Positions 12,771-46,997 of a stretch of 64,000 nt of DNA are shown here, piece by piece. This DNA comes from Galbitalea soli (lineage in GTDB: Bacteria; Actinomycetota; Actinomycetes; Actinomycetales; Microbacteriaceae). Position numbers and translations under genes: made by a program. The notes under the pieces are model-generated. The model ran no database searches and was not told the origin of the DNA. It worked only from the letters and a program-made list of their open reading frames with translations. The stretch's first letter is position 1. The number at the start of each line of letters is the position of its first letter. The DNA lies in the NCBI RefSeq assembly GCF_010686725.1, contig NZ_JAAGWZ010000005.1, positions 62,001 through 126,000 of the forward strand, in the 5' to 3' direction.

Positions 12771-12814
12771 CGCGACGGCCGGCGCGGGCGCCGGCGGCGG
12801 GTTCGTTGGCGCCC

Positions 12815-12888: not shown

Positions 12889-12897
12889 GTTCTTCAT

Positions 12898-13035: not shown

Positions 13036-13044
13036 TCACAGACC

Positions 13045-13086: not shown

Positions 13087-13230
13087 TCTCCCGCGCGGGC
13101 CAGTGCCCGCGGTGACGATCAGCGCGCCGCTGCTGAGCGCGGGCGCGCCGCAGGGCGGTCCGGCACAGGCGAGCGCGCCGGTCCAGCGGGCCCGGTCGGG
13201 TCGCGGGCGCGGGTCGCAGGGCAAGCGGGC

Positions 13231-15314: not shown

Positions 15315-15340
15315 GCCGACAACAGTAGTTCGTCGCGGCC

Positions 15341-16255
15341 TCAGGCCGGGGACTGCGGCGCGACGAGCCCGAGCTGCTCCACCGCGCGCCCCAGAATGTC
15401 GCGGCAGGCCGTGATGGCGGCGCTCGTGCCGCTCGACCGCCGCGCCGAGGTGAAGATGGTGCGCCGGGGGAGACCCGCCAGCTCGACCAGCCGCACGCTC
15501 GGCGGGCGTCCCGCCCAGACGAGATCGGGCAGCAGGGCGACCGCGTGCCCCGACTCGACGAGGCGGATGTGCGCCTGCAGGTCGGCCGTCTCGAACCGCA
15601 CGTCGGGTTCGAAGCCCGCCGTGCGACAGGCCTGCTCCGCCCAGTGCCGGGACGCGGTGCCCCTCGGCTCCATCACCCAGGCGCTGTCGCGCGCGTCGGC
15701 GATCCCGGTGATGCGGGCCGAGCTGGCCCCCAGCCGGATCGCGTCGGTGCACAGCGGCTGCCGGTCGAGCTCGGCGATCCGCGGGGCCGCGTGCCCCGGG
15801 TACTGCTCGGCGATGACGAGGTCGAACTCCCGCGCCCAGACGGCCGCGAGGGCGCTCTCCGGTTCCCGCTGGGTGATCTCGACCCGCAGCGAGGGATGCT
15901 CGGCCGCCAGCATCGTGAGGGCGAGCGGCACCACGCTCAGCGCCGCCGACTGGAAGACGGCCAGCCGCACCGTCCCGCTCGCGACGCTGCGGGTGCGGGC
16001 GAGGTCGGCCTCCAGCTGCTCCATCCGTTCGAGCAGCGCGTGGGTGTGCTCGACGAGGAGTTCGGCCTCCGCCGTCAGTCGCACGCGGCGCCCGGACTTG
16101 ACGAGCAGCGGCACCCCGACCTCCTCCTCGAGGGCGGAGAGCTGCTGGGAGACGGAGGACGCGCTGTAGGAGAGCGCCTCGGCGACGGCGGCGATCGTGC
16201 CGCGCAGCTGGAGCTCGCGAAGGAGGGCGAGGCGGCGGAGCTCGAGCACGGTCAT
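15341..16255 (-). CDS. LysR-family transcriptional regulator
   Basis: A 304-residue LysR protein. The N-terminal winged helix is clear (TIAAVAEALSYSASSVSQQLSALEEEVGVPLL), then a linker and a type 2 periplasmic-binding-like effector domain starting near VRLAVFQSAALSVVPLAL. The start is the ATG at 16255 behind GGGGG. It is divergent from putA with about 120 bases between the two starts, so it is the best candidate for a proline- or P5C-responsive regulator of putA; that link is inferred from position only. Confidence 0.88.
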   Translation of the reverse strand: MTVLELRRLALLRELQLRGTIAAVAEALSYSASSVSQQLSALEEEVGVPLLVKSGRRVRLTAEAELLVEHTHALLERMEQLEADLARTRSVASGTVRLAVFQSAALSVVPLALTMLAAEHPSLRVEITQREPESALAAVWAREFDLVIAEQYPGHAAPRIAELDRQPLCTDAIRLGASSARITGIADARDSAWVMEPRGTASRHWAEQACRTAGFEPDVRFETADLQAHIRLVESGHAVALLPDLVWAGRPPSVRLVELAGLPRRTIFTSARRSSGTSAAITACRDILGRAVEQLGLVAPQSPA

Positions 16256-16374
16256 CCCCCATTCGTCAGGTATTCCGATCAGTATCGTGCACAAACCATC
16301 GCTTTTCACGATGGATTGACGCGCGCACACTGGAACCGGAACCCCCGCCGAGTGAGAGGCATAGTCTCGTGAGC

Positions 16375-19300
16375 ATGTCGAGCATCGATCCGCAGCCCGT
16401 CCACCACCCCGCGGACCTCGCGGACGAGGCGATCGCCACCGTGCGCCGCTGGCTGCAGGAATCGGCGAGCGTCGCGCCGGATGTGAGCGCCCAGCGACTG
16501 GCCGGCGTGCTCAAGGATCCGCGCGGTCTGCAATTCACCCTCGGCTTCGTCGACACGGTCGTGCGGCCGGAGGACGTGCACGTGGCCGGGGCCAATCTCG
16601 CGCGACTGGGGCGGATCATCCCGCGATTCCTGCCCTGGTACCTGCGCGCGGCGATCGCGGTCGGGGGCATCCTCGGCCCCGTGCTGCCGTGGATCGTGGT
16701 GCCCGTCGCGCGGCGCGTGCTGCGCTCGATGGTCAGCCACCTCGTGATCGACGCGCGCCCGGCCGAACTCGACAAGACCCTCGCCACCCTGCGCCGCCAG
16801 CGGGTGCGGCTCAACCTCAATCTTCTGGGCGAGGCGGTGCTCGGAGACGAGGAGTCGGACCGTCGACTGCGCGGAACCCGCGAACTCCTCGAGCGCGATG
16901 ACGTCGACTACGTCTCGATCAAGGTCTCATCGGTCGTGGCGCACATGTCGATGTGGGGTTTCGAGCAGACGGTGCAGCGCGTGGTGGAGCGACTGACCCC
17001 GCTCTACGAGTACGCGGCCGTCTCCCCGACGCCCAAGTTCATCAACCTCGACATGGAGGAGTACCACGATCTCGACCTGACGATCGCGGTCTTCACGGCC
17101 CTGCTCGACCAGCCGCGCCTCGCGAAGCTCGAGGCGGGAATCGTGCTGCAGGCCTACCTGCCCGACGCGCTCGGCGCGCTCAAGAAGCTCACCGCGTGGG
17201 CGATCGAACGGCGGGCGCGGGGCGGGGCGGGCATCAAGGTGCGCGTCGTCAAGGGCGCGAACCTGGCGATGGAGCGGGTCGATGCCGCCCTGCACGGCTG
17301 GCCGCTCGCGACCCTGCCGAGCAAGCAGGAGACCGACACGAACTACAAGCGGGTACTCGACTGGGCGTTCACCCCGGAGCACACGGATGCGGTGCGCATC
17401 GGCGTCGCCGGCCACAACCTCTTCGACGTGGCGTTCGCCTGGCTCCTGGCCCGCCAGCGCCACGTCGACACCCGTGTCGAGTTCGAGATGCTGCTGGGCA
17501 TGGCGACGGGGCAGGCCGACGCGGTCAAGCGAGCCGTCGGCGGACTCCTCCTGTACACGCCCGTCGTGCAGCCGCACGACTTCGACACCGCCATCGGCTA
17601 CCTCGTGCGCCGGCTGGAGGAGAACGCCGACCCCGAGAACTTCATGAGCGGCGTCTTCGAGCTCGCGAGCAGCGAGGCGATCTTCGAGCGCGAGGCCGGC
17701 CGATTCCGCGCCTCGCTGGCCGGGCTGGATGACCCCCTCCCGACCCCCAATCGCACCCAGGATCGCTCCCACCCGAGCGTCGCGCCCTCCACCGTGGGCG
17801 CCTTCCGCAACGAGCCGGACACGGACTCCGCGCTCGCGGGCAACCGGGCCTGGGCGCTGCGCGTGCTCGAACGCAGTGCGGACTCCACCCTCGGCGTCGA
17901 CACGATCGCGGCCGCCGCCGTGACCGATGCGGCCGCTCTGGAGACGATCGTCGCGGGTGCCGTCGCGGCCGGAACGGGCTGGGGAGCGACCCCGGCTCAC
18001 GATCGCGCGCGCATCCTGCACGACGCCGGCGACGTGCTCGCTGCGTTCCGCGGGCGACTCGTCGAGGTGATGGCGAGCGAGACCGGCAAGACCATCGGCG
18101 AGGCCGACGTGGAGGTGAGCGAGGCGGTCGACTTCGCGCACTACTACGCGGAGCGGGCGCTCGACCTCGACCACGTCACCGGTGCACGGTTCGTGCCCTC
18201 CACACTCATCGTCGTCACCCCGCCGTGGAACTTCCCGGTGGCGATCCCGGCGGGCTCGGTGCTGTCGGCGCTCGCCTCCGGAGCCGCGGTCATCATCAAG
18301 CCGGCTCCGCAGGCGCGCCGCTGCGCGGCCGTCATGATCGAGGCACTGTGGGAGGCGGGCGTGCCGCGCGAGGTGCTCCAGCTCGTCGACATCGAGGAGG
18401 GCGAGCTCGGGCGGGCGCTCATCGCCGACCCCCGCGTCGACCGCGTCATCCTCACCGGCGCCTGGGAGACGGCGGCACTGTTCCGCAGCTGGCGGCCGGA
18501 GCTTCCGCTGCTCGCCGAGACGAGCGGCAAGAACGCGATCATCGTCACTCCGTCGGCCGATCTCGACCTCGCCGTCGCCGATGTCGTGCGCAGCGCCTTC
18601 GGGCACGCCGGGCAGAAGTGCTCCGCCGCCTCGCTCGTCATTCTGGTCGGTTCGGTCGCGTCGTCGGAGCGCTTCCGTCGTCAGCTCGTGGGGTCGGCAC
18701 GGGCCGTGCGGGTCGGCTACCCGCAGGACCCGACCGTCGAGATGGGGCCGATCGTGGAACCCGCGCACGGCAAGCTGCTCTCCGCATTGACGGAGCTGGC
18801 GCCGGGCGAGGAGTGGCTCGTGAAGCCGCGCCAGCTCGACGAGACGCAGCGGCTGTGGTCGCCCGGCGTGAAGGCGGGGGTCGCGCCGGGGAGCGCGTTC
18901 CACCTCACCGAGTACTTCGGTCCCGTGCTCGGCATCATGACCGCGCGCACGCTCGACGAGGCGATCGCCCTGCAGAACGCGAGCGACTACGGGCTCACCG
19001 CGGGCCTCCACTCCCTCGACCCCGACGAGGTGGCCCACTGGATCGACACCGTCGACGCGGGCAACCTCTACGTGAACCGCGGCATCACCGGCGCGATCGT
19101 GCGCCGACAGCCCTTCGGCGGCTGGAAGCGCTCGGCGGTCGGGACCGGGGCGAAGGCGGGCGGGCCCAACTACCTGCTGACCCTCGGCAGCTGGGTCGCG
19201 GTTGCGGAGGAGACGGCGGATGACCTGCTCCTCGACGGCATCAGCGCACCGGTCGCGACCGTCATCACGCGCGCCCAGGCCGGCATGGAGTTCGAGGAGT

Positions 19301-33885: not shown

Positions 33886-35985
33886 GTGAGCACCCCCGAG
33901 CAGTCCGCGCCCGTCCTTCCCGGCATCCGGTTCGGGGCGGCCTACTACCCCGAGTACGAGCCGGGGAAGGACATCGAGGGGGATCTCGACCTGATGGCGG
34001 CGGCCGGGTTCACGGTCATCCGGGTCGGCGAGTCGGTGTGGTCGACCTGGGAGCCGCGCGACGGCGAGTTCGACCTCGACTGGCTGCAGCCCACTCTCGA
34101 CGGCGCCCACGCGCGCGGCATCGCGGTGATCCTCGGCACGCCCACCTACGCGATCCCGCCGTGGCTGCAGGTGAAGCACCCGGAGCTCGCGAGCGACGTC
34201 GCCACGGGCACCCCCAAGCACTGGGGAGCCCGGCAGGAGGTCGACTACTCGAGCCCGCTGTTCTGGACCTACTGCGAGCGCATCATCCGGGTCATCCTCG
34301 AGCGCTACGCGGCACACCCCGCCGTCATCGGCTTCCAGGTCGACAACGAGCCCGGCATGGAGCTCTTCCACAACGCGCACACCTTCGAGCGCTTCGTCGC
34401 CGAACTCGCCGAGAAGTACGGCGACGTCGAGACGCTCAACCGCGAGTGGGGCCTCGTCTACTGGTCGCACCGCATCACCGACTGGGGCCAGCTCTGGGTG
34501 CCCGACGGCAACACCCTTCCGCAGTACGACCTCGCCTGGCGCGCCTTCCAGGCGCGGCTCACCACGGAGTTCATCTCGAAGCAGGCCGATCTCGTGCGCG
34601 AGTACAGCGCGCCGACTCAGTTCATCACCACCTGCTTCCAGTACGGACGGCCCGCCACGCACGAGCCGCAGACCGCGCTCGCGCTCGACGTCACCGCCTC
34701 CAACCCCTACTACGGCATGCAGGATCACCTCGCCAAGGGTGTCGACCTGCCCGCACTGGCCGAGTGGAACACGACCGGACCGTGGGGCCTCATGTTCCAG
34801 GGCGACCGCGCCTGGGCATCCAAGCAGGCCCGCTTCCTGGTCACCGAGACCGACGTGCAGACCATCAGCGGCAGCGACCACAACTACCCGCCCTACCCCG
34901 GGCAGCTGAAGCAGGCCGCGCTCGCGCTCGTCGCCCGCGGCGCCGCGATGATCGAGTACTGGCACTGGCAGTCGCTGCGCTACGGCACCGAGACGTACTG
35001 GGGCGGCGTGCTCCCGCACAGCCAGAAGCCCGGGCGCATCTACCGCGAGGTCGCCGCGCTCGGTGAGACGCTGCGCTCCCTCGGCGGCACGCTCGACGGC
35101 TTCGTTCCCGACTCCGACATCGCCGTGCTGTTCTCGCACGAGAGCCTGTGGGCCTTCAACTTCTTCCCGCCGCTGCACACGGCCGACCACCGGCCCGACC
35201 GCTTCGCGTACCGCCGCATCTTCGACGCCTTCTACCGCGGGGTCATCGACGCGGGCGCGCAGGCCAACATCGTGCACCCCGAGCAGCTGGGCGACGACCC
35301 CGCTGCCTTCGCGGCTGCGCACCCGGTGTTCCTGGTTCCGGCCTTCTACACGGCGACGGATGACCAGCTCGCCTTCCTGCGCGACTACGCCCTCGCGGGC
35401 GGGCACCTCATCGCGGGCATCCGCACCGGCTACGGTGACGACGAGGCGCGCGCGCGGCTCGCGGTGGCGCCGGCGGTGCTGAGCGAGGTGGCCGGCGTCT
35501 GGTACGACGAGTTCTCCAATCTCGATGCACCGCTCGCGGTCATCCCGGAGGGCGGGTTCACCGTCTCGCCCGAGGCCCGCGCCACCGCCTGGGCCGATGG
35601 CCTCGTCGTCGACGGCGCCACCGTGCTCGCCGGCTATCAGCACTCCGAGCTCGGGCGGTTCCCCGCGATCACCACGCGAGAGGTCGGCGCCGGCCGCGTC
35701 ACCTACGTGGGCACCGTGCCCAACGCGGCGCTCGCGGCCGACATCATCCACTGGGCCGTGCCCCTGCCGACCGCCGGCGAGTGGATGATCGCCCCCACCG
35801 TCACCGTCACCTCCGGTACCACCGGCGCGGGTCGCCGCGCCTGGTTCGTGCACAACTGGAGCTCCCTTCCCGCAACGGCCACCAGCCCGGTCGCGGTCAC
35901 CGACGCGACCGACGGCAGCGAGTTCGCCGCCGGCCACGAATTCTCGCTCGAGCCCTGGGCCGCCCTGGTCCTCACGAGCGAGTAG
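33886..35985 (+). CDS. Beta-galactosidase, GH42
   Basis: A 699-residue GH42 enzyme: TIM barrel opening with GIRFGAAYYPEYEP, acid/base Glu155 in QVDNEPGMEL and nucleophile Glu321 in FLVTETDVQ, then the trimerisation and beta domains. It lacks a signal peptide and should hydrolyse imported galactosides. The acid/base loop reads DNEP, not the usual NEY, so substrate preference may differ from the second GH42 of the operon. The GTG start is the first gene after the operators. Confidence 0.92.
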   Translation: MSTPEQSAPVLPGIRFGAAYYPEYEPGKDIEGDLDLMAAAGFTVIRVGESVWSTWEPRDGEFDLDWLQPTLDGAHARGIAVILGTPTYAIPPWLQVKHPELASDVATGTPKHWGARQEVDYSSPLFWTYCERIIRVILERYAAHPAVIGFQVDNEPGMELFHNAHTFERFVAELAEKYGDVETLNREWGLVYWSHRITDWGQLWVPDGNTLPQYDLAWRAFQARLTTEFISKQADLVREYSAPTQFITTCFQYGRPATHEPQTALALDVTASNPYYGMQDHLAKGVDLPALAEWNTTGPWGLMFQGDRAWASKQARFLVTETDVQTISGSDHNYPPYPGQLKQAALALVARGAAMIEYWHWQSLRYGTETYWGGVLPHSQKPGRIYREVAALGETLRSLGGTLDGFVPDSDIAVLFSHESLWAFNFFPPLHTADHRPDRFAYRRIFDAFYRGVIDAGAQANIVHPEQLGDDPAAFAAAHPVFLVPAFYTATDDQLAFLRDYALAGGHLIAGIRTGYGDDEARARLAVAPAVLSEVAGVWYDEFSNLDAPLAVIPEGGFTVSPEARATAWADGLVVDGATVLAGYQHSELGRFPAITTREVGAGRVTYVGTVPNAALAADIIHWAVPLPTAGEWMIAPTVTVTSGTTGAGRRAWFVHNWSSLPATATSPVAVTDATDGSEFAAGHEFSLEPWAALVLTSE

Positions 35986-36032
35986 ACGCTTCGTCGACGC
36001 TGACGAAGCCCACCACGAAAAAGGAAAGGCAC

Positions 36033-37394
36033 ATGAGAAAACGCGCACCAAGAACAGCTTTGGCGCTGGGCGTCGGCCTGCTGACCACTGCACTGCTCCT
36101 CACCGGGTGCACCCCGGGTACCTCCACCGGTGGAACCACCACCACGGGCACCGTCAGCCAGGCCGACATCGACAAGGCCATGAAGACGCCCACGACGCTG
36201 ACCTTCTGGACCTGGGTGCCCGACATCCAGAACGAGGTCGACCTCTTCGAGAAGGCCTACCCGGCCATCAAGGTGAAGGTCGAGAACGTCGGACAGGGTG
36301 CCCCGCACTACACGAAGATCCGCACGGCACTCAAGGCCGGCACCGGCGCTCCCGATGTCGCCCAGATCGAGTACCAGTACATCTCGTCGTTCAACGTGAC
36401 CAAGTCGCTCGCCGACCTCACGCCCTACGGCGGCGCGAAGCTCAAGAGCGACTACGTGCCGTGGGTGTGGAACCAGGTCGTGCAGAACGGGCAGGTTCTG
36501 GCGATCCCGCAGGACTCCGGCCCCATGGGTAACCTCTACCGCACCGACATCCTGAAGAAGGCGGGCATCACCACGCCGCCCGCCACCTGGGACGAGTACG
36601 CGACCGACGCGGCCCTCGTCAAGCAGAAGACCGGCTCGTACATCTCCGATGTCGCGTCGAGCCAGGCGGGCCAGTGGCTCGGGCTCCTGTGGCAGGCCGG
36701 CGCCAAGCCGTTCGGCTACGACGGCAAGAAGGGCGTCACGGTCGACGTGAACAGCGCGAAGGCCAAGCAGGTCGTGAGCTACTGGGAGAAGCTGATCAAG
36801 GCCGACCTGGTCTCGACCGACCCCGACTTCACGGATGCCTGGTACCAGGGTCTCGCGAAGGGCAAGTACGCCGGCTGGCTGACCGCGGCCTGGGGCCCGA
36901 TCTTCCTGCAGGGCACGGCCAAGAACACCTCCGGCCTCTGGGCCGCCGCGCCGCTGCCGCAGTGGGACGCGAGCGCTCCCGCCTCCGGCAACTGGGGTGG
37001 ATCGTCGGACGCGGTGCTCGCCACCTCGAAGAACAAGATCGCCGCGTACGAGTTCGCCAAGTGGATCAACAACGACAAGTCGTCCACCTCGCTGTTCGCG
37101 TCGAAGCAGTTCCTCTGGCCGACCGCGAACAACGTGCTCACCGACTCCGCCTTCACCGACACCAAGTCGGCGTTCTACGGCGGCCAGCAGGTGAACAAGA
37201 CGTTCTCCGACATCTCCAACACCGTCGACACGAAGTTCGAGTGGCTGCCCTACATGGACTTCGCCTACTCGAGCTTCACCGACACCATCGGTAAGCAGAT
37301 CGCATCGAAGGGCGACCTCTCGGCCGGCCTCGACGCGTGGCAGAAGGCGCTCGTCGACTACGGAACCCAGCAGGGCTTCACGGTCAACAAGTAA
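36033..37394 (+). CDS. Sugar ABC transporter substrate-binding lipoprotein
   Basis: A 453-residue extracellular solute-binding protein, family 1, with signal MRKRAPRTALALGVGLLTT and lipobox LTGC. LTFWTWVPDIQNEVDLFE opens the mature fold; PQDSGPMGNLYR and AYEFAKWINN are later landmarks. Between two GH42 genes the ligand is probably a beta-galactoside or galacto-oligosaccharide. AAAGGAAAGG precedes the ATG. Confidence 0.93.
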   Translation: MRKRAPRTALALGVGLLTTALLLTGCTPGTSTGGTTTTGTVSQADIDKAMKTPTTLTFWTWVPDIQNEVDLFEKAYPAIKVKVENVGQGAPHYTKIRTALKAGTGAPDVAQIEYQYISSFNVTKSLADLTPYGGAKLKSDYVPWVWNQVVQNGQVLAIPQDSGPMGNLYRTDILKKAGITTPPATWDEYATDAALVKQKTGSYISDVASSQAGQWLGLLWQAGAKPFGYDGKKGVTVDVNSAKAKQVVSYWEKLIKADLVSTDPDFTDAWYQGLAKGKYAGWLTAAWGPIFLQGTAKNTSGLWAAAPLPQWDASAPASGNWGGSSDAVLATSKNKIAAYEFAKWINNDKSSTSLFASKQFLWPTANNVLTDSAFTDTKSAFYGGQQVNKTFSDISNTVDTKFEWLPYMDFAYSSFTDTIGKQIASKGDLSAGLDAWQKALVDYGTQQGFTVNK

Positions 37395-37402
37395 CGCCTC
37401 AC

Positions 37403-37436
37403 GGGGTGGTTCCGCTCCTCGGAGCGGGACCACCCC
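37403..37436 (+). terminator. Hairpin between binding-protein and permease genes
   Basis: GGGGTGGTTCCGCTCC and GGAGCGGGACCACCCC form a long stem with one or two G-U pairs. In ABC operons such a hairpin behind the binding-protein gene typically protects its message or stops part of the transcription, so that more binding protein than permease is made. Confidence 0.7.
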
Positions 37437-37476
37437 CGTCCCCGTTCTTCCCCGCCATCACCACAAAGGAGTACCG

Positions 37477-38415
37477 ATGAGCACACAGGCCGTCGCCGGC
37501 ACGGCGACGAGGCGTCCCCGCCCCGGGGGCGCATCCACGACGAAGAAGAAGCAGTGGCGCGCCGCCTATCTCTTCGTCATCCCGTTCTTCCTCGTCTTCG
37601 TCACGATGCTGATCGTGCCGCTGTTCTACTCGGGGTACCTCAGCTTCTTCGCCACCCGCCTCGTGGGCGGCACGAGCTTCGCCGGCGTCGAGAACTACGT
37701 GAAGACATTCACCGACCCGCTGTTCCTGGCGGGGCTCGGACGCACGGCGCTGTTCCTGGTCATCCAGGTGCCCATCATGCTCGGCCTCGCGCTGTTCTTC
37801 GCGCTGGCCCTCGACAGCGGGCGCGTTCGCGGCGCGAAGGTGCTCCGGCTGCTGTTCTTCGTGCCCTACGCCATTCCCGGAGTGGTCGCCACGCTCATGT
37901 GGGGCTACCTCTACGGCCAGGACTTCGGCCCGATCGATCAGGTGCTCGGCTTCCTCGGGCTCGGCCAGCCCAACCTGCTGTCCGACAGCAACGTGCTCGG
38001 TTCGATGATGAACATCGTCACGTGGGAGTTCGTCGGCTACAACATGATCATCATGTACTCGGCCCTGAGGTCGATCCCCGCCGAGCTCTTCGAGGCGGCC
38101 GAGATCGACGGGGCCTCGCAGTTCCGGGTGGCGTGGAGCATCAAGATCCCGGCGATCCGTCCGGCGATCCTGCTCACGGTCATCTTCTCGATCATCGGCA
38201 GCTTCCAGCTCTTCAACGAGCCGAGCCTGCTGCGCAACATCGCCCCCAACGCGATCAACTCGTCGTACACACCCAACTTCTACGCGTACAACCTTGCTTT
38301 CGTGAACCAGGACGTCAACTACGCGGCCGCGGTCGCCTTCATCCTCGGCATCGTGATCATGATCGTCTCCTACGTCGTTCAGCTCACCACCCAGCGAAGG
38401 GAGCGCCTCGGATGA
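37477..38415 (+). CDS. Sugar ABC transporter permease, MalF type
   Basis: A 312-residue permease with six helices (first at LFVIPFFLVFVTMLIVPLFY) and the EAA-type loop FEAAEIDGASQFRVAWSIKI near 205. A polar, lysine-rich N-terminal tail of about 27 residues precedes the first helix. AAAGGAG stands before the ATG. Its stop overlaps the next permease start. Confidence 0.93.
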   Translation: MSTQAVAGTATRRPRPGGASTTKKKQWRAAYLFVIPFFLVFVTMLIVPLFYSGYLSFFATRLVGGTSFAGVENYVKTFTDPLFLAGLGRTALFLVIQVPIMLGLALFFALALDSGRVRGAKVLRLLFFVPYAIPGVVATLMWGYLYGQDFGPIDQVLGFLGLGQPNLLSDSNVLGSMMNIVTWEFVGYNMIIMYSALRSIPAELFEAAEIDGASQFRVAWSIKIPAIRPAILLTVIFSIIGSFQLFNEPSLLRNIAPNAINSSYTPNFYAYNLAFVNQDVNYAAAVAFILGIVIMIVSYVVQLTTQRRERLG

Positions 38416-39326
38416 GCGCCCTCAGCACCGCCGCACCCGCGGCCGCCTCCACCGCCCGTCGGCCGAAGGCGTACTCACCCGAGAAGCGCCGGAGCAACCT
38501 GCTCACGGTGATCCTCTGGGTCATCGCGCTGTACTTCGTGATCCCCCTGTTCTGGCTCGTCATCGCGTCGACGAAGGACAACGCCGACCTGTTCTCGAGC
38601 TTCGGGCTCTGGTTCGGCGCGCACTTCAGCCTGTTCCAGAACATCGGCGACGTCTTCAGCGCGCAGGGCGGCATCTTCCTGCGCTGGGCGCTCAACACCG
38701 TGCTCTACGCGGGGGTCTCGGCGGTCGGCGCCTCCCTGCTCGCCACGATGGCCGGGTACGCCTTCGCGAAGTACCAGTTCCCGGGCGGCAAGGCGCTGTT
38801 CAGCGTCACCCTCGGCGCGATCATGATCCCGCTCACCGCGCTCGCCATCCCGACTTACCTGCTGTTCTCGTCGGCGGGGCTCACAAACACGCCCTTCGCG
38901 GTCATCCTGCCCTCGCTCGTCAGCCCCTTCGGGGTCTTCCTCATGCGGGTGTACGCGGCCGATGCCGTGCCCGACTCGCTCATCGAGGCGGCCCGGGTGG
39001 ATGGCGCGGGGGAGTTTCGCATCTTCTGGCAGGTGAGCCTGCGGCTGCTCGGCCCCGGGGTCGTGACGGTGTTCCTGTTCGCGCTCGTTGCGACGTGGAA
39101 CAACTACTTCCTGCCCCTCATCATGCTGAACACGCAGGAGCTCTACCCGCTCACGGTGGGGCTCGCACAGCAGCAGGCGGCCAGCGCGGCGGGCGGCGGC
39201 GCCCAGGCGCTGTTCTCGACGGTCATCACGGGGTCGCTCGTATCGGTCATCCCGCTGGTCGTCGCCTTCCTCTACCTCCAGCGCTACTGGCAGACCGGTC
39301 TCGCGACCGGTGGTGTCAAGGGCTGA
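38412..39326 (+). CDS. Sugar ABC transporter permease, MalG type
   Basis: A 304-residue permease, six helices, with the EAA loop SLIEAARVDGAGEFRIFWQV near 205-224 and C-terminus QRYWQTGLATGGVKG. Overlaps the MalF-type gene as ATGA. Like the dextran system it has no partner ATPase in the operon. Confidence 0.93.
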   Translation: MSALSTAAPAAASTARRPKAYSPEKRRSNLLTVILWVIALYFVIPLFWLVIASTKDNADLFSSFGLWFGAHFSLFQNIGDVFSAQGGIFLRWALNTVLYAGVSAVGASLLATMAGYAFAKYQFPGGKALFSVTLGAIMIPLTALAIPTYLLFSSAGLTNTPFAVILPSLVSPFGVFLMRVYAADAVPDSLIEAARVDGAGEFRIFWQVSLRLLGPGVVTVFLFALVATWNNYFLPLIMLNTQELYPLTVGLAQQQAASAAGGGAQALFSTVITGSLVSVIPLVVAFLYLQRYWQTGLATGGVKG

Positions 39327-39360
39327 CCTCCCGACCACGATCACGAAAGACAGCTGACGA

Positions 39361-41331
39361 ATGAACGACACCACCCCCGCGATCTGGTACGGCGGCGACT
39401 ACAACCCCGAGCAGTGGCCCGAGGAGATCTGGGATGAGGATGTGCGCCTCATGCAGCAGGGCGGCATCAGCCTGGTGAGCCTCGGCATCTTCTCCTGGGC
39501 GAAGCTGGAGCCGCGCGAGGGCGACTTCGACTTCGCCTGGCTGGACCGCATCATGGCGAAGCTTCACGAGGGCGGGGTGCGCATCGACCTCGCCACGGCG
39601 ACCGCATCACCGCCCCCGTGGCTCTCGCACGCCTACCCCGAGGTGCTTCCCGTCACCGAGACGGGCGTGCGCCTGCAGCTGGGCAGCCGGCAGCAGTACT
39701 GCCCGAGCTCCCCGGTGTTCCGGCGGCTCGCGGCGAGGCTCGTGCAGAAGATCGCCGAGCGCTACAGCGACCACCCCGGACTCGAGCTGTGGCACATCGG
39801 CAACGAGTACGGCTGCCACGTGAGCCACTGCTACTGCGAGGTCTCGGCGGAGGCGTTCCGGGGCTGGCTGCGCGCCCGGTACGGCACGGTCGAGGCGGTC
39901 AACGCGGCATGGGGCACCGCGTTCTGGTCGCAGAACTACGGAACCTTCGACGAGATCCACCCGCCCAGCGCCGCGCCCACCTTCCGCAACCCGGGCCAGC
40001 TCCTCGACTTCGACCGGTTCAGCTCGGATGAACTGCTCGAGTGCTACCGGACCGAGCTCGCCGTGCTGCGCGCCGCGACGCCCGCCGTGCCCATCACCAC
40101 GAACTTCATGGGCTTGTTCGGCGCCGCCGACTACTGGAAGTGGGCGCAGGAGGTCGACGTCGTCTCCGACGACTCCTACCCCGACCCGGCCGACCCGGAG
40201 TCACCCGCCTACGCGGCGATGACGCGCGACCTCATGCGCTCGCTGCGCGGCGGTCAGCCCTGGCTGCTCATGGAGCAGGCGCCCAGTGCCGTCAACTGGC
40301 GGCGACGCAACGCGCCCAAGCGACCGGGGCAGATGCGGGCGTGGTCGTTGCAGGCGGTCGCGCGGGGTGCCGACGGCATCCTCTTCTTCCAGTGGCGCCA
40401 GTCGGTGTCGGGGGCCGAGAAGTTCCACTCCGGGCTCGTTCCCCACGCCGGAACGGACACCCGCGTGTGGCGCGAGGTCGAGGCGCTCGGCGCCGAACTG
40501 AAGTCGCTGTCGTCGATCGCGGGGTCGCGGGTCGAGGCCCGGGTCGCGATCGTGATGGAGTGGGACAGCTGGTGGAGCCTGAACCAGGATGCCCTGCCCG
40601 CCCACCTCTCCTACGTGCAGTCGATCTACTCCTGGTACCGCGAGCTCTGGGCGCGGACAGTGACCGTCGACTTCGTGCGGGCCACGAGCGACCTCTCCGG
40701 CTACGCGGTCGTCGTGGTTCCCACCCTGTTCACGGCCTCCGCCGCGGCGCTCGGCAACCTGGCGGCGTTCGCCGAGGCGGGCGGCCACCTCGTGGTCGGC
40801 TACCAGAGCGGCATCACCGACGAGACCACCCGCATCACCGCGGGCGGCTACCTCGGGGCGCTGCAGGAGACCCTCGGCGTGCGGGTGGAGGAGTTCGCGC
40901 CGTTCGCCACGGCTGACCTCGCGGCCTCCGCTCCGGCCTCGGTCGAGCTGCCGACCGGCGTGCTGGTGGGACTCGCGTCGGGCGAGACGCCCGCGACCGT
41001 CTGGGCCGAGTACCTGCACGCCACCGATGCCGAAGTGGTGGCGACGTTCGGACACGGGGACCTCGCGGGCTGGCCGGCGATCACCCGGCGGGCCACCGCA
41101 TCCGGTGCCGCCTGGTACGTCGCGACCCAGCCGGTCGGCTCGGGCATGGATGACCTGCTCGACCGCGTGCTCGGCGACGCGGGCGTCACCGGGGTGCTGG
41201 CGGCGCCGGTCGCGGGCGTCGAGGCCGTGAGACGTGGCGGTCGCCTGTTCCTCATCAACCACGGGGACACGACGGTGGCGGTCGAGGGCATCACCGTCGA
41301 ACCGCGCGGCGTGCACATCGGCGAGGCGTGA
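39361..41331 (+). CDS. Beta-galactosidase, GH42
   Basis: A 656-residue GH42 enzyme with classical sites: WYGGDYNPEQWPEEIW at the N-terminus, acid/base Glu149 in HIGNEYGCH, nucleophile Glu305 in WLLMEQAPSAVNW. The Cys-rich stretch CHVSHCYCE next to the acid/base may bind zinc, as in other GH42 enzymes. No signal peptide, so cytoplasmic. It closes the operon and is followed by a terminator hairpin. Confidence 0.94.
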   Translation: MNDTTPAIWYGGDYNPEQWPEEIWDEDVRLMQQGGISLVSLGIFSWAKLEPREGDFDFAWLDRIMAKLHEGGVRIDLATATASPPPWLSHAYPEVLPVTETGVRLQLGSRQQYCPSSPVFRRLAARLVQKIAERYSDHPGLELWHIGNEYGCHVSHCYCEVSAEAFRGWLRARYGTVEAVNAAWGTAFWSQNYGTFDEIHPPSAAPTFRNPGQLLDFDRFSSDELLECYRTELAVLRAATPAVPITTNFMGLFGAADYWKWAQEVDVVSDDSYPDPADPESPAYAAMTRDLMRSLRGGQPWLLMEQAPSAVNWRRRNAPKRPGQMRAWSLQAVARGADGILFFQWRQSVSGAEKFHSGLVPHAGTDTRVWREVEALGAELKSLSSIAGSRVEARVAIVMEWDSWWSLNQDALPAHLSYVQSIYSWYRELWARTVTVDFVRATSDLSGYAVVVVPTLFTASAAALGNLAAFAEAGGHLVVGYQSGITDETTRITAGGYLGALQETLGVRVEEFAPFATADLAASAPASVELPTGVLVGLASGETPATVWAEYLHATDAEVVATFGHGDLAGWPAITRRATASGAAWYVATQPVGSGMDDLLDRVLGDAGVTGVLAAPVAGVEAVRRGGRLFLINHGDTTVAVEGITVEPRGVHIGEA

Positions 41332-41333
41332 TC

Positions 41334-41359
41334 GTGGGCGGGCAAAAGCGTCCGCCCAC
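41334..41359 (+). terminator. Terminator of the GH42 operon
   Basis: GTGGGCGG (41334-41341) pairs exactly with CCGCCCAC (41352-41359); the loop contains GCAAAAGC, which can pair further. It begins three bases after the GH42 stop codon. Confidence 0.7.
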
Positions 41360-41360
41360 C

Positions 41361-41848
41361 CTGCCCGGCTGGGAGGACGCGTAGTGGCGGGGTGAGCTGT
41401 CGCTCGCGGCGCTGCTCATCGACCGCCCCGGCGACGTGATGCTGTCGGCACGGGTGACGGTCGACTTCGCGGGTACCTTCGATGCGGGCGTGCTGTGCCT
41501 GTGGGAGTCGGAGGAGTGCTGGGCGAAGCTGTGCTTCGAGTACTCCCCGCGGGGCCAGCCGATGGTCGTGTCGGTGGTGACCCGCGGGCACTCCGACGAC
41601 GCCAACGCGATCGCGATCGACTCGCCGAGGGTTTGGTTGCGCGTCGCGCGCATCTGCGTGGCCTACGCGTTCCACTACTCGACCGACGGGGTGTACTGGC
41701 ATTTCGTGCGCCTGTTCCGACTGGGTGACGACGGCCGGGCCCGACTCGGGATGCTCGCTCAAGCTCCCGTGGGCGAGGGGTGCACGCGCGCTTCGACCAC
41801 GTGCGGCTCGCCCGCGAGACCGCCGGGAACCTCCGCGACGGGAGCTGA
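41361..41848 (+). pseudogene. Decayed DUF1349 gene
   Basis: The central frame reads as a DUF1349 protein (VTVDFAGTFDAGVLCLW, WAKLCFEYSPRGQPMVVSVV, DDANAIAIDSPRVWLRVARI). The usual N-terminal part is reduced to Leu-Pro-Gly-Trp-Glu-Asp-Ala and an in-frame stop at about 41381. Near 41780 a one-base frame change is needed to continue into FDHVRLARETAGNLRDG. Both defects point to a pseudogene, unless sequencing errors explain them. Members of the family are often encoded beside carbohydrate genes, which fits the place. Confidence 0.72.
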
Positions 41849-41928
41849 CCGCGCCCTGCGGCCGACTGCGCCCTGCGGCTGACCGCGCCCTGCGGCTGAC
41901 TGCGCCCCGCGGCTGACCGCGCCCTGCG
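41844..41928. repeat. Tandem array, five 17-bp units
   Basis: Five units of the type GCTGACCGCGCCCTGCG; units 1, 3 and 5 are identical, units 2 and 4 share the variant GACTGCG. The first unit includes the TGA that ends the DUF1349 remnant. Confidence 0.93.
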
Positions 41929-42114: not shown

Positions 42115-42558
42115 ATGATTCACACGAAACGGAGCCGGCGGCGGCGCGCAGTGATGGCGGTGGCGGCCACGGCGGCCATCGCGGTCGGAGTGGTGACGGG
42201 GCCGGCGGTTGCGGCGTATGCGGAAACTCTGAGTCTTGGGCCAAGCCACGTCTATTGGTCGAAGACGTTTTACACCAAGGCCCACTACAAGCACGTGACT
42301 GGCCATGCCGCGATTTCGAATGTCCGGGTGCACGAGACGTGCGGGGCGGGGGGATACGTCAACATCGGATTTCGCACGCATATCGAGCAGTACGGTGAAT
42401 CCACGCAGTTCCCGTCGATTCGGAACGGAAGCGGAGCGACCTTCCGAAACGTTGATGGCCCGGCGGGCTACCGCTACACCTTCAGCTCCGGCTTCTATTA
42501 CTTCAACGCCAAGCTCGGGTGTGAGGCAGGCACGTGGTCCGGAACGGTCCACTGGTGA
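42115..42558 (+). CDS. Small secreted protein of unknown function
   Basis: A 147-residue protein with a basic n-region (KRSRRRR), a hydrophobic stretch to about residue 33 and a likely cleavage after AYA. The mature part of about 108 residues is rich in Tyr, His, Gly and Ser, has two cysteines (HETCGAGG and KLGCEAG) that could form a disulfide, and ends GTWSGTVHW; it looks like an all-beta domain. It does not match a family I know; a resemblance to lactococcin-972-type bacteriocins is too weak to claim. It is the first gene of the operon and overlaps the next as TGATG. Confidence 0.8.
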   Translation: MIHTKRSRRRRAVMAVAATAAIAVGVVTGPAVAAYAETLSLGPSHVYWSKTFYTKAHYKHVTGHAAISNVRVHETCGAGGYVNIGFRTHIEQYGESTQFPSIRNGSGATFRNVDGPAGYRYTFSSGFYYFNAKLGCEAGTWSGTVHW

Positions 42559-43115
42559 TGGGTCGTTCGTCGCTAGCGTTCGCGGCCTCAATCGGTCTGG
42601 TGTTGGCCCTCGTGGGCTGCACGTCCTCGCCCCATTCAGCAAAGAGTCCAGGCGTGGAATCGCCTACGTCCATTCCAACGTCTCAGTCCGGTTTCGTCGC
42701 GGCGACGGAATCGAGTGCGAACGCTGAATACAAGCGAAGCATCGCGAAAATGCCTGCTCCGCTTCCCTCTGGCACGTCATTTCCAGCGAGTATCTCAGCG
42801 GCAGAACTCCCTCCCGCAGGCGAGGGAATCGTCGAGGAAGGCATCGGCCGGAACAAGGCATGGTTCACGTGGCTCTGCGCCTGGGAAGCCTCGTACCTCG
42901 ATGCGTACGCGGCTGGTGATGCCAAGCAGTCGAAGTTGGCCGCGTCGATGATCGAGCTCTGGTCTCGCTCCGACTTCTATCGCGACTCGGTCGACGATCC
43001 TAGTCACGGTTGGGTCGACAACGTGATCGCCCCGATGAAGCTCGACGATCCATCCGGTGTCAAGCAGGATCACGAGTCGATGTGCGCCGACTACCCCACG
43101 GTGCCGACGAAATGA
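42558..43115 (+). CDS. Paralogous lipoprotein 1 of 3 (WLCAWE family)
   Basis: A 185-residue lipoprotein (signal MGRSSLAFAASIGLVLA, lipobox LVGC) with a Ser/Pro-rich linker and then the domain shared by the next two genes: YKRSIAKMPAPLPSG, WFTWLCAWEASYLDAYAAGD, DDPSGVKQDHESMC. Two cysteines are conserved in all three copies (WLCAWE and the one 13-14 residues from the end), perhaps a disulfide. The function is unknown. TGATG overlap upstream, ATGA overlap downstream. A GTG one codon upstream is an alternative start. Confidence 0.85.
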   Translation: MGRSSLAFAASIGLVLALVGCTSSPHSAKSPGVESPTSIPTSQSGFVAATESSANAEYKRSIAKMPAPLPSGTSFPASISAAELPPAGEGIVEEGIGRNKAWFTWLCAWEASYLDAYAAGDAKQSKLAASMIELWSRSDFYRDSVDDPSHGWVDNVIAPMKLDDPSGVKQDHESMCADYPTVPTK

Positions 43116-43708
43116 GGGCGAACTGGGCCCGCCGCAATGTGAGCGTCCGCGGCAGGGGACTCTTCGCTCCCCTCATCGGTGGTGCGGTGATGATGGTCTT
43201 GACCGCATGCTCGGGATCGCCCCACGCGACACCGTCTCATCAGGCGAACGTGCCCGGCAAGACCGTGCCCTCGGCGGAGCCGTCCTTCGTCGCGCTGACG
43301 AAGGGCAGCGCGGCTGAGGAGTACAAGCGGAATATCGCCGCCGTTCCCGAGCCGCTACCTTCGGGTCGCGCTTACCCGCCGGGACTCCCTGCTGACTTCG
43401 TGCCCGACCCGGAGGATGGCCTTCTGGAGGCGGGCGGCGCGCGGAACGTCGTCTGGTACACGTGGCTCTGCGCGTGGGAGTCGTCGTACCTCGATTCCTT
43501 CGCCGCCGGTGACAAGGCGAAGACGGCACTCGCGGAGTCCATGCTCGAGCGGTGGGCAACGATGGACTTCTATCAAAACGTGGAAGACGACCCGGAGAAG
43601 GGCTTCATCACCCACGTACTCGACCCCATGAAGTTGGGCGATCCGTCCGGAGTTAAACAGGATTACCAGTCACTTTGCGGCGAACTCCCCACGGTGGCGG
43701 CGAAATGA
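43112..43708 (+). CDS. Paralogous lipoprotein 2 of 3 (WLCAWE family)
   Basis: A 198-residue lipoprotein: longer basic N-terminus, helix GLFAPLIGGAVMMVL, lipobox LTAC. The domain repeats the pattern of its neighbours: YKRNIAAVPEPLPSGRAYPP, WYTWLCAWESSYLDSFAAGD, GDPSGVKQDYQSLC, ending PTVAAK. It is most similar to copy 3 in the PEPLP-GRAYPP segment and to copy 1 in the SYLD-AAGD segment. ATGA overlaps on both sides. Confidence 0.86.
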   Translation: MRANWARRNVSVRGRGLFAPLIGGAVMMVLTACSGSPHATPSHQANVPGKTVPSAEPSFVALTKGSAAEEYKRNIAAVPEPLPSGRAYPPGLPADFVPDPEDGLLEAGGARNVVWYTWLCAWESSYLDSFAAGDKAKTALAESMLERWATMDFYQNVEDDPEKGFITHVLDPMKLGDPSGVKQDYQSLCGELPTVAAK

Positions 43709-44298
43709 GCGAGCGACAGAGCCGCCCCGCCGGCGCGGTGACGGGCCGCGCGATTACCGTCGTGATCGTGGGCGGGCTGATCGGCGCAATCCTTACGGGG
43801 TGCGAGAGTGCGCCCGGTACGTCGTCGGCGTCGGGTGGGGGAACGCCCGGGTTCGCCGAGCCCACGGCACCGCCTCTGATTCCCGAGACGCAGAGAAACG
43901 CCGATCGTGAGTACCGGCGCGTCAGCCGGCTCATCCCGGAGCCGCTCCCACCCGGCCGCGCCTACCCTCCGGCGCTGCCCGACCGCATGATCCCAGCCTC
44001 CTCGGATGGCGTCATGGAACAGGGTTTGGGGCGCTACGTCGCGTGGTACACCTGGCTCTGCGCCTGGGAGTCCGCCTATCTGACCGCTTCCGCATCAGAC
44101 GACAAGCCGGCGCTCGCCGCGGCAGAGGCGAAGCTCAACCAATGGCCCTCGATGGAGTTCCATCGCGACGACGAGGACGACCCCGACCACGTCTGGACCA
44201 CGAACGTGCTCGACAAGATGAACCTCGATGACCCATCCGGGGTGAAGAGCGACTACGACTCGCTCTGCTCGGACTTTCCCACGGTGGCGGCGAAATGA
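43705..44298 (+). CDS. Paralogous lipoprotein 3 of 3 (WLCAWE family)
   Basis: A 197-residue lipoprotein with signal helix AITVVIVGGLIGAI and lipobox LTGC. Shared blocks: YRRVSRLIPEPLPPGRAYPP, WYTWLCAWESAYL, DDPSGVKSDYDSLC and the terminal PTVAAK. The middle is the most diverged of the three. Tandem duplication with divergence is the simplest origin. ATGA overlap on both sides couples it to the export genes. Confidence 0.86.
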   Translation: MSERQSRPAGAVTGRAITVVIVGGLIGAILTGCESAPGTSSASGGGTPGFAEPTAPPLIPETQRNADREYRRVSRLIPEPLPPGRAYPPALPDRMIPASSDGVMEQGLGRYVAWYTWLCAWESAYLTASASDDKPALAAAEAKLNQWPSMEFHRDDEDDPDHVWTTNVLDKMNLDDPSGVKSDYDSLCSDFPTVAAK

Positions 44299-45104
44299 GG
44301 CGGGCACTCCTCGCGGCGACGGTCGCCGTCGCCGCACTGCTGCTCGCGGGGTGCACGCCCGCCGCGGTGCACCCCGCCGACCCGGAGCCCAGCTATGCGG
44401 GGCCGGCGAAGGTCACCGTGAAACGGAAGACGATCATCCCCGTGCTGTCGCTCGGCGCCGAGGTGCGCAGCGACGTCGAGTACCAGGTGACCGCACCCGT
44501 GGCCGGCACCATCCGGCGCGGAGCGCATGATCAACCGGTCATCACCGCCCCGGACGGCACGACCCACGCGGTCGACCTCCCGACCGGCGCGCGCATCACC
44601 GACATCCTGGTGGCCGACGGGCAGCGCGTCGCCAAGGGGCTGCCGATCGCGCTCGCGACCGAGACCGGCTTCGCCCTCGTCGCCGCGGTGGAGGGCGCCG
44701 ACCTGCTGCGCTTCGCCGTGACGCCGCTCTCGGCGAAGGCGCAGATCGTGGCGAGCGGGTCGCCGTTCGACTGCCGGTTCCTCGACCCGAGGCCCACCAC
44801 CCTGCCCGACTCGAAAGACGAGCACCTCATGGCCTGCCAGATTCCGGATGACCAGCCCGTCGTACTCGGAATGACCGGCACGATCGCCTTCCGCTTCCCC
44901 GGCGCGACCGACGTGCTGACCCTCCCCACGCTCGCCGTCGCCGGAACGCTCGACAACGGGGCGGTCACCCTCGTGCGCGGCGGCAGCCGCTCGACCGTGA
45001 AGGTCGGCCTCGGCATCACCGACGGCTTCGACGTGCAGATCACCTCGGGCCTGCACGAGGGCGACACCGTGGAAGTGCCGAGCCCCTCGCTGTTCAATGG
45101 CTGA
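44295..45104 (+). CDS. MacA-like periplasmic-adaptor lipoprotein
   Basis: A 269-residue lipoprotein (signal MRRALLAATVAVAALLL, lipobox LAGC). The core resembles membrane-fusion proteins: VTAPVAGTIRRGA, then LPTGARITDILVADGQRVAKG as in barrel-sandwich domains, and at the end GLGITDGFDVQITSGLHEGD as in MacA/RND adaptors. No long coiled coil is present, which suits a monoderm cell. It should work with the ATPase and permease that follow. Confidence 0.85.
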   Translation: MRRALLAATVAVAALLLAGCTPAAVHPADPEPSYAGPAKVTVKRKTIIPVLSLGAEVRSDVEYQVTAPVAGTIRRGAHDQPVITAPDGTTHAVDLPTGARITDILVADGQRVAKGLPIALATETGFALVAAVEGADLLRFAVTPLSAKAQIVASGSPFDCRFLDPRPTTLPDSKDEHLMACQIPDDQPVVLGMTGTIAFRFPGATDVLTLPTLAVAGTLDNGAVTLVRGGSRSTVKVGLGITDGFDVQITSGLHEGDTVEVPSPSLFNG

Positions 45105-45831
45105 GCCGGTAATCCAACTGCGGGGCGTCGGCAAGGCGGTACCCGGCCTCCCGCACCTGCTCAGCGACGTCAGCCTGTCGGTCGAGCGCGGCAGCTCGGT
45201 GGCGATCATGGGCCGGTCGGGATCGGGCAAGAGCACCATGCTGTCGGTGCTCGGCCTGCTCGACCCCGACTTCGCGGGCGAGTACCTGCTGAACGGGCAG
45301 CGCGTCGATCGGCTGTCGTCGCGGGCGTGCGACCGCCTGCGCGGCACCGAGATCGGATTCGTCTTCCAGCGCTTCGCCCTGTTCGCCCACCTCAGCGCCC
45401 TCGAGAACGTCATGGTGCCGCTGCGACACCGGGGCGGGTCGACGGAGCGCGCGATGCGACACCGCGCGCACGCCGCACTCGACAGCGTCGACATGGGGCA
45501 CGCCGCCCGCCGGCGCCCCCGCCACCTCTCCGGCGGGGAGCAGCAGAGGGTCGCGATCGCCCGGGCGCTCATCAACGACCCGGCGCTCATCCTCGCCGAC
45601 GAGCCCACCGGATCGCTCGACGCCGACACCGGCCGCACCATCGTCAGCCTGCTGCTCGGCCGGGTCGCCGAACAGGGCGCCGCGCTCGTCGTCGTCACCC
45701 ACGAGCACGACGTCGCGGCCGAGATGGATGACCTGCTGCGGCTCACCCGCGGCACCCTCGCCCCGGGTTCCGAGGTGCCCGCGCCCGCCGCCGACCACCG
45801 CCCGCCCGCCCTCGCGGAGGCCGGCGCATGA
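45097..45831 (+). CDS. ABC transporter ATPase, MacB/LolD family
   Basis: A 244-residue ATPase: Walker A GRSGSGKST, Q-loop FVFQRFALF, signature LSGGEQQRVAIARAL, Walker B ALILADEPTGSLD, H-loop VVVTHEHD. The LADEPTGSLD form is typical of the MacB/LolD/FtsE group that drives extrusion of lipids, peptides or lipoproteins by mechanotransmission. It overlaps the adaptor gene by eight bases and the permease by four. Confidence 0.95.
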   Translation: MAEPVIQLRGVGKAVPGLPHLLSDVSLSVERGSSVAIMGRSGSGKSTMLSVLGLLDPDFAGEYLLNGQRVDRLSSRACDRLRGTEIGFVFQRFALFAHLSALENVMVPLRHRGGSTERAMRHRAHAALDSVDMGHAARRRPRHLSGGEQQRVAIARALINDPALILADEPTGSLDADTGRTIVSLLLGRVAEQGAALVVVTHEHDVAAEMDDLLRLTRGTLAPGSEVPAPAADHRPPALAEAGA

Positions 45832-46997
45832 ACCTCCTCCGGATCGCCCTGCAGTCCATCGCGGTCAACTGGGTGCGGACCCTGCTCGCGATCATCGCCC
45901 TCTCCTCCTCGGTCGTGGGGGTCGTCACCGTCGCCTCCGCCGCCGCGACCATCGAGACGACCGTCACCCACCGGGCCCTCATGGCCGACGGCTCGCCCTC
46001 CACCCTTCTCGTGAGCGGGCTGAACGGCGCGGAGGGCCTCACCGAGAGCGTCGAGTGGAAGGCGCAGCTCCAGCCCTACGTCGGTGGGGGCTCGGTCGCG
46101 CGGATCGCCCAACTCGAGTCGGCGACGATCGTGAGCGAGGGCCGGTCCGATTCGGTCGACATCTCCTTCACCGAGCCGGAGCTCACCCGCAACCACCCCT
46201 TCGAGGTGCTGGGCGGGCGATGGCTGGGCGGCCGTCGCGACACCGTCGCGGTGCCCGTTGTCGTGAACCGGCTGGAGGCGAACGCGCTCGACCTCCGCCT
46301 CGGCGGGGCGATCGAGCTGCGGGCGTCCACGGCCGAGACCACCCTGCAGGCGCTCGTCGTCGGAGTCGTCGAGGACGGGGCCCACGATCAGCGCGCCTAC
46401 GTCGCGCTCGCCGACGCCGACGCCTTCCTGCGCGGCAATCAGGCGCAGCTCACGACCTCGCTGGAGGTGGCGGCGCCCGGACTCGCCACCGAAGACCTGA
46501 CACGCCGCCTCAACGGGCTCTCCTCGCTGCGCGGAGTCCGGGTCGATTGGGCGGTGCAGCGGGTCGACACCGTGGGCGGGCTCCGGCAGGAGGTCGAGGC
46601 GACACGGTCCGCGTTCCTCGTCGTGGGGATCCTGGGCCTCGTGGCGGGGGCGGTCGCGGTGGCCAACATCGGCCTCAGCGCGGTGCGGGAGCGGTCATCC
46701 GAGCTGTCGCTCCGACGCGCGCTCGGTGCCCGCCGCTGGCACCTCCCCGCGGTGATGGTGCTCGAATCGCAGCTCATCGCCGTGGTCGCCGGCGTCGTCG
46801 CGATCGCGATGTCGTGGGCGATCTACCCGACGCTCGCTCAGCAGTTCGGCGCGCCCTACGGGATCGCCGCGCCGCCGTACCCGACCGCGGTCGCCGCCGC
46901 GGGGATCCTCGTCGGCATGGGGACCGCGCTGCTCGGGGGCCTCGTGCCCGCCGTGCACTCGATGCGCGCCCCCATCGCGAGCATCATGCGGGCGTAG
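45828..46997 (+). CDS. FtsX-like ABC permease, MacB type
   Basis: A 389-residue permease with one N-terminal helix (RTLLAIIALSSSVVGVVTVA), an extracytoplasmic domain of about 210 residues, and three C-terminal helices with the FtsX signature SAVRERSSELSLRRALGARR at about 284-303. With the ATPase and adaptor it makes a MacAB-like efflux or lipoprotein-handling machine. It ends the operon; a 36-bp repeat pair follows. Confidence 0.93.
   Translation: MNLLRIALQSIAVNWVRTLLAIIALSSSVVGVVTVASAAATIETTVTHRALMADGSPSTLLVSGLNGAEGLTESVEWKAQLQPYVGGGSVARIAQLESATIVSEGRSDSVDISFTEPELTRNHPFEVLGGRWLGGRRDTVAVPVVVNRLEANALDLRLGGAIELRASTAETTLQALVVGVVEDGAHDQRAYVALADADAFLRGNQAQLTTSLEVAAPGLATEDLTRRLNGLSSLRGVRVDWAVQRVDTVGGLRQEVEATRSAFLVVGILGLVAGAVAVANIGLSAVRERSSELSLRRALGARRWHLPAVMVLESQLIAVVAGVVAIAMSWAIYPTLAQQFGAPYGIAAPPYPTAVAAAGILVGMGTALLGGLVPAVHSMRAPIASIMRA

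Follow-up and report, generated by a model that had tools for sequence, protein, structure and literature searches.

The 64,000-nucleotide stretch analysed here (hereafter the window; positions 62,001 to 126,000 of contig NZ_JAAGWZ010000005.1, assembly GCF_010686725.1) belongs to the 3.04 Mb genome of Galbitalea soli (Microbacteriaceae). It contains, at 42115-46997, an operon of seven genes in one direction, all overlapping, in which a small secreted protein and three related lipoproteins precede a cassette resembling MacB-type ATP-binding cassette (ABC) systems. The first gene (42115..42558, like the others on the + strand) is an open reading frame (ORF) of 147 amino acids (aa), supported also by a family alignment and a genome-wide search, and encodes the small secreted protein, here called SEC. 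Its stop overlaps the start ATG of lipoprotein copy 1 (42558..43115, 185 aa) as TGATG, and ATGA overlaps then lead into copy 2 (43112..43708, 198 aa, ATG at 43112), copy 3 (43705..44298, 197 aa) and the gene for a MacA-like adaptor (44295..45104), which has a lipobox of its own, LLAGC. The lipoproteins are thus genes 2-4 of the operon, which is completed by an ABC ATPase of the LolD/MacB/FtsE type (45097..45831) and a MacB/FtsX-type permease (45828..46997).

The G+C content of SEC and copies 1-3 is 0.61-0.68, compared with 0.72-0.74 in the cassette. Likewise, G+C content at third codon positions (GC3) is 0.70-0.84 in these four genes (42115-44298), whereas it reaches 0.93-0.95 both in the cassette and in the beta-galactosidase gene upstream. 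The four leading genes may thus have had a history of their own. A promoter search detected no sigma-70-like sequence, and terminators were at chance level.

The WCAW lipoproteins and their family

A preliminary description of this DNA noted a lipoprotein family triplicated in tandem and sharing the motifs Y-[KR]-R-x5-P-x-PLP-x-G, W-[FY]-TWLCAWE-[AS]-x-YL and DPSGVK-x-D-x3-[ML]-C; the three genes are intact, and all three motifs are indeed found in every copy. In each copy, an N-terminal hydrophobic segment leads up to the lipobox Cys (VGC, TAC and TGC in copies 1, 2 and 3, respectively), after which come a linker of free sequence and a conserved domain of ~130 residues, referred to below as the WCAW domain. 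Besides the lipobox Cys, two Cys are invariant in all copies, that of WLCAWE and that of the C-terminal [ML]C, as originally noted. Full-length pairwise identity is 39-46%; mature copies 1 and 3 are each 49% identical to copy 2, which as a query in its own genome retrieves them at E=1.2e-55 and 2.4e-55, a similarity well beyond chance. In a 62-row tree of WCAW domains, from which broken or partial rows were excluded, the window copies form one group (bootstrap 96, SH-aLRT 73, support that is not firm), and their neighbours are lone Cellulomonas lipoproteins and HAAS-linked sensors. This grouping is consistent with tandem duplication in this lineage.

At E<=1e-4, a hidden Markov model (HMM) built from the three copies detected the family in 35 of 398 Microbacteriaceae genomes, representing 23 of 85 genera. 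It should be noted that one row of this result, at 14617-15087 of the window, is a chance match and was dropped, since this open frame runs antisense to the called genes at 13231-14805 and 14802-15314; genuine members are also present in this genome. A 20-row profile extended the family to 15 of 297 genomes sampled from the order and to 4 of 396 sampled from the phylum. A first profile scan of genome contigs returned no relatives and a second, with a wider alignment, returned 17 loci; nine loci duplicating others were removed before arriving at the 62 loci counted below. Named loci come from the Microbacteriaceae (Cryobacterium, Salinibacterium, Leifsonia, Herbiconiux, Naasia and metagenome-assembled genomes of Glaciihabitans), Cellulomonas, Actinotalea and Arthrobacter.

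Copies 1-3 have no significant match in Pfam, NCBIfam, PHROGs or PADLOC, none of 20 WCAW members matches Pfam or NCBIfam (E<=0.001), the WCAW profile has no match among PDB sequences at E<=1, and copy 2 has no match in plasmid and phage collections. WCAW proteins belong to a family described by no library searched. Literature searches on the motif string, on MacB with bacteriocins and on Microbacteriaceae with MacB and lipoproteins turned up no account of the family, within a coverage that mostly leaves out subscription journals.

The AlphaFold2 model of mature copy 2, built with 20 sequences, is all-helical and confident, with a mean predicted local distance difference test score (pLDDT) of 86 and a predicted template modelling score (pTM) of 0.77; ten-residue blocks score 83-98 from residue 31 on, and confidence is low over roughly the first 25 residues. 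Foldseek returned no match to this model at E<=0.001, which does not show WCAW to be a new fold. Nor did any solved structure stand out, the best VIA-align Z, 7.2 to FliS (root-mean-square deviation 2.8, 84 aligned residues, model positions 76-161), being in the range common for helical bundles.

Both Cys are aligned in 54 WCAW rows. Nine more rows have the first Cys and a gap in the second column; a Cys close to the C-terminal end is present in seven of these and lacking in L071, and the ninth row represents the first half of a gene that is broken (L049). With four fragment rows excluded (L049 twice, L047 and L066), a C-terminal Cys is retained in 61 of the 62 intact members that possess the first Cys, and the second Cys is missing from all five members in which the first is absent. 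This co-loss supports a disulfide in the WCAW domain, predicted to join the long WLCAWE helix to the last helix (C88-C157 in mature copy 2), and the co-loss is its basis. The compact domain under selection that was initially proposed is supported, as an undescribed domain that contains a disulfide, by its recurrence, the lack of a curated match, the confident model and the paired loss of Cys.

The preliminary description also suggested that the three paralogues are specialised, each binding a different partner or contributing to a hetero-oligomer. The copies are 39-49% identical and keep all conserved positions, as would be expected under this suggestion, and multiple copies occur elsewhere, namely a two-copy tandem in locus L065 and two SEC-WCAW pairs in L060. 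However, most relatives have a single WCAW copy beside the same cassette, which implies that the core function needs no three different subunits and that a three-way hetero-oligomer is no general requirement. We consider specialisation of the copies very unlikely. The triplication is a local detail, and the partnership of WCAW with SEC is the general finding: it recurs in related soil and water bacteria across the Micrococcales, accompanied by a MacB-type machine or by giant surface proteins, or with WCAW recast as a sensor. The preliminary description did not take in the overlapping operon, with SEC just upstream as the likely partner and the MacAB-like machine downstream.

Linkage of WCAW with SEC and with the MacA-ABC-permease cassette

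SEC has a signal peptide (AYA/ETL cleavage, by eye), two Cys and a C-terminal WSGTVHW. None of 21 SEC members matches Pfam. The SEC model, built with seven sequences, is all-beta and of moderate confidence (mean pLDDT 71), and a fold search with it gave weak jelly-roll matches at best, none of them significant (best E 0.03). A 21-row SEC profile yielded 35 match rows over the 398 family genomes, of which 27 cover the full domain; the other eight, matching profile positions 1 to 71-106 in ORFs of >=489 aa, were dropped as signal-peptide matches. All but one of the 27 full-domain SEC genes (26/27) adjoin a WCAW gene or share its operon, 23 being paired with a WCAW gene from the three-copy search and three of the other four with one found by the wider profile. 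Because 19 of the 27 were themselves rows of the search profile, the independent count is 7 of 8. The lone SEC gene without a nearby WCAW gene (L127, G348:C28:245000-260000, about 7000-7475) is preceded by a gene whose product resembles, by eye, a DNA methyltransferase fused to an AAA ATPase.

Seen from the WCAW side, SEC lies on the same strand within 4.5 kb in 30 of 62 loci. This count is a minimum, because the profile misses two SEC-like sequences recognised by eye, a secreted ORF in L153 and a C-terminal piece in L160. In 26 loci, the net charge of WCAW cores ranges from -2 to -22 and that of SEC from -1 to +8.

The MacA-like adaptor matches RND_mfp TIGR01730 at E=1.4e-10 (40.6 bits, under the curated cut-off of 94.9) and MacA chains in the PDB at E=1.7e-4 to 6.5e-4. 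The ATPase matches ABC_tran at E=2.9e-32 and the LolD model at E=3.7e-59, under the equivalog cut-off; its top models include LolD, L_ocin_972_ABC, FtsE and MacB, and its score against TIGR03608 is 179 bits (cut-off 254.85). The permease matches FtsX PF02687 at E=3.2e-13 (50.2 bits, above the cut-off of 25.5) and MacB_PCD at E=3.1e-5 (24.8 bits, just under the cut-off of 27), and phmmer relates it to MacB chains in the PDB (E=1.1e-9) and to 5xu1, an ABC transporter permease (E=1.6e-5). Judged by these matches, the cassette has the ATPase, permease and adaptor expected of a MacB-type (type VII) ABC system, the adaptor being clearly similar although under its curated cut-off, and its cluster is present in 22 linked loci.

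This cassette is found on the same strand within 4.5 kb of WCAW in 20 of 62 loci, or 22 of 62 when the divergent L077 and L090 are counted. In the converse search of 100 family genomes, the window permease found matches in four; three are WCAW/SEC loci and the fourth is a cassette without SEC or WCAW. Lipidation follows the cassette: a lipobox pattern is present in 20 of 27 WCAW ORFs of cassette loci as opposed to 2 of 14 in loci that have only the giant protein described below (Fisher p=0.0006), which indicates that the lipid anchor goes with the membrane machine. The misses among cassette loci include broken genes (L068 and the second piece of L049) and Cys sites outside the pattern (L152, L157, L158 and the first piece of L049). 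By eye, integrase/transposase-like ORFs adjoin the WCAW cassette of L051 (3669-4516), a possible sign of mobility.

Giant surface proteins and HAAS/PadR sensors

A different setting for SEC and WCAW is provided by giant secreted proteins of 1300-2300 aa, with SLT-like and golvesin-like domains followed by a GDSL hydrolase, with or without CW_binding_2, or by RHS repeats. Such giants occur at 14 places in 13 of the 398 genomes, and 11 of the 14 places (10 of 13 without the query itself) are within ~5 kb of SEC/WCAW; the remaining three stretches are without WCAW. Thirteen loci have a giant beside SEC/WCAW (L053, L055, L056, L059, L060, L062, L072, L074, L095, L128, L049, L057 and L009), and in several the giant is transcribed divergently from the pair. 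These loci strengthen an explanation based on assembly and display, in which WCAW would act as an anchor or chaperone for SEC, itself an exoprotein with a structural or carbohydrate-binding role, the two building a cell-surface structure with the giant in some genomes or the MacAB-like machine in others and no toxin being involved. Also in line with this explanation, the WCAW proteins of giant loci are mostly without a lipobox, and the weak, non-significant fold matches of SEC are to jelly-roll binding modules. Against it, no giant surface protein lies near the window operon, 18 of the 20 cassette loci have none in the fetched stretch (by profile; clustering adds L051), and the sensor fusions described below are left unexplained. 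We consider assembly and display rather unlikely as an account of the family.

The Galbitalea genome itself has a second, diverged locus of this kind (L009, G000:C1:1246000-1263000, 1-10222), where a 2230-aa RHS/SLT/golvesin protein faces a WCAW gene without a lipobox, SEC, a PadR-like gene and a membrane protein; a further WCAW protein, weakly similar to LysM, is encoded there as well. The genome has another giant of the RHS type, which adjoins an ABC/FtsX pair (L167, G000:C2:482000-501500, 292-729 and 7535-16379), and a weak SEC-profile match lies 9 kb away. Genes for a class A penicillin-binding protein (transglycosylase/transpeptidase) often lie near SEC/WCAW pairs, in a cluster of five loci (L053, L055, L057, L074 and L075), and the products in L057 and L075 carry PASTA domains.

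In Salinibacterium, Cryobacterium and Actinotalea, WCAW forms the outer part of membrane proteins whose inner part is a HAAS domain, as expected of a ligand-binding domain. The HAAS match is above the Pfam cut-off in L045 and L092, weaker and below it in L044 (the same place as L084) and L089, and absent in L082, these being the loci taken into the scan. A PadR-like gene is common to six sensor-type loci, where it stands next to the HAAS-type fusion (L044, L045, L046, L048, L089 and L092). The window differs in that copies 1-3 are lipoproteins without a HAAS match in the Pfam scan, and the operon has no PadR-like gene.

These fusions strengthen another explanation, sensing and detoxification, in which WCAW would bind an envelope-active compound such as an antibiotic or peptide of other bacteria, with the lipoproteins feeding a MacAB-like pump, the HAAS-linked copies signalling via PadR, and SEC as an accessory. 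HAAS-PadR pairs have been proposed as alternatives to two-component systems (PMC11237479), and MacAB homologues of Streptococcus pneumoniae are reported to respond to antimicrobial peptides (PMC8277102). WCAW genes without SEC exist, and there is no SEC match in any of the five family genomes with sensor-type WCAW (G144, where the gene is broken by a stop, G199, G243, G343 and G393). However, the pairing of 26 of 27 SEC genes with WCAW argues that SEC is more than an accessory, and we regard this explanation as quite unlikely.

Proposed roles of SEC and the WCAW lipoproteins

The explanation that we favour, tentatively and at somewhat less than even chances, is that the WCAW lipoproteins are membrane-anchored proteins of the receptor or immunity type that bind SEC and work with the MacAB/Ykn-type machine, where the binding, the direction of transport and any toxicity of SEC are what we infer. 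The three WCAW proteins would be tandem copies of one extracytoplasmic domain, all-helical, disulfide-stapled and lipid-anchored on the outer face of the membrane. SEC would leave the cell through Sec by means of its signal peptide and hence reach that outer face by itself, where the acidic lipoproteins may capture the neutral-to-basic SEC. The MacA-like lipoprotein, the ABC ATPase and the MacB/FtsX permease would then drive SEC off the membrane and across the wall by mechanotransmission. According to PMC8277102, MacB-type systems push substrates that are already outside the membrane rather than moving them across their own membrane. The outcome would be self-protection and release, as with NisI plus NisFEG for nisin and YknWXYZ for the SDP toxin, making SEC a bacteriocin-like or signalling effector; having three WCAW copies would increase dosage or allow more SEC variants to be bound.

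Comparison with known systems shows both likenesses and differences. The window operon resembles MacAB, YknWXYZ and Spr0693-0695 in having a MacA-like adaptor, a separate ABC ATPase and a MacB/FtsX permease in one operon, but it additionally encodes a secreted protein of the Sec type together with three WCAW lipoproteins. In YknWXYZ, YknW is an integral membrane protein; the comparison concerns the MacB-like parts only, and the curated cut-offs of the named families are not reached. The Gram-positive MacB-type YknWXYZ protects Bacillus from its own SDP toxin (PMC8277102, PMC4887032). A further comparison is with lantibiotic immunity by the lipoprotein NisI and the ABC transporter NisFEG (PMC4234265, PMC4094520 and PMC4828448). 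Here the likeness lies in the layout of a secreted effector gene, a membrane-anchored lipoprotein and an ABC transporter at the membrane. By contrast, mature SEC has ~110 residues and is not a lanthipeptide, the operon is without modification enzymes, no sequence match of WCAW to lipoproteins of the NisI/SpaI type emerged from the PDB, Pfam and NCBIfam comparisons, and the transporter of the window operon is MacB-like and has an adaptor. The lactococcin 972 system (PF09683) is similar in that a small Sec-type protein is encoded next to an ABC system whose ATPase is distantly of the TIGR03608 type.

Several observations weigh against the favoured explanation. At 32 of 62 WCAW loci, including two Cellulomonas lipoproteins and the HAAS-type fusions, there is no SEC match within 4.5 kb, and many SEC-WCAW pairs accompany a giant surface protein instead of the cassette. 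Across 13 cassette loci, with seven near-identical or broken loci excluded, the tree distances of WCAW correlate with those of SEC at r=0.44, of MacA at r=0.54 and of the permease at r=0.66; the correlation is lower with SEC than with the permease, and hence we do not claim a special co-evolution of SEC and WCAW. Mean tree distances of SEC, WCAW, MacA and permease are similar, at 2.7-2.9. Faster evolution of SEC and WCAW than of the cassette, which had been expected, is thus not apparent from the tree distances, and there is no sign of the unusually fast evolution of a toxin and its immunity protein. Assignment of SEC to Lactococcin_972 was also rejected, as a PF09683 scan of its own genome gave one match elsewhere (on C2), below the cut-off, and none at SEC. 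It should be emphasized that binding of SEC by WCAW, and killing by SEC, are inferences, whereas the operon, the protein family, the links of WCAW with SEC and with the cassette, the sensor fusions and the association of lipidation with the cassette are observed.

A broader extension of the receptor reading, which we consider unlikely, is that the Micrococcales possess an undescribed exoprotein system in which SEC is the effector and WCAW its receptor. The same receptor domain would then serve in three forms: as a lipid-anchored protein alongside a MacAB-like machine for immunity or release, as a free protein beside giants, and as the extracytoplasmic part of HAAS/PadR sensors where the genome itself encodes no SEC. 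If this were true, bacteria with the HAAS/PadR sensor and without a SEC of their own could eavesdrop on the SEC of a neighbour.

Two secreted or surface families without a curated model are tied together here, and to a MacB-type machine, across many genera. Few substrates are known for MacB-type machines in Gram-positive bacteria; with a candidate substrate and its putative membrane receptor in one operon, the substrate question becomes directly testable. The use of one domain both as a lipoprotein and as a sensor input likewise offers a handle on what both detect.

Directly upstream of the operon, at 33886-41882 of the window, lies a sugar-use cluster comprising a GH42 beta-galactosidase, genes resembling an ABC sugar importer, and a DUF1349 protein.

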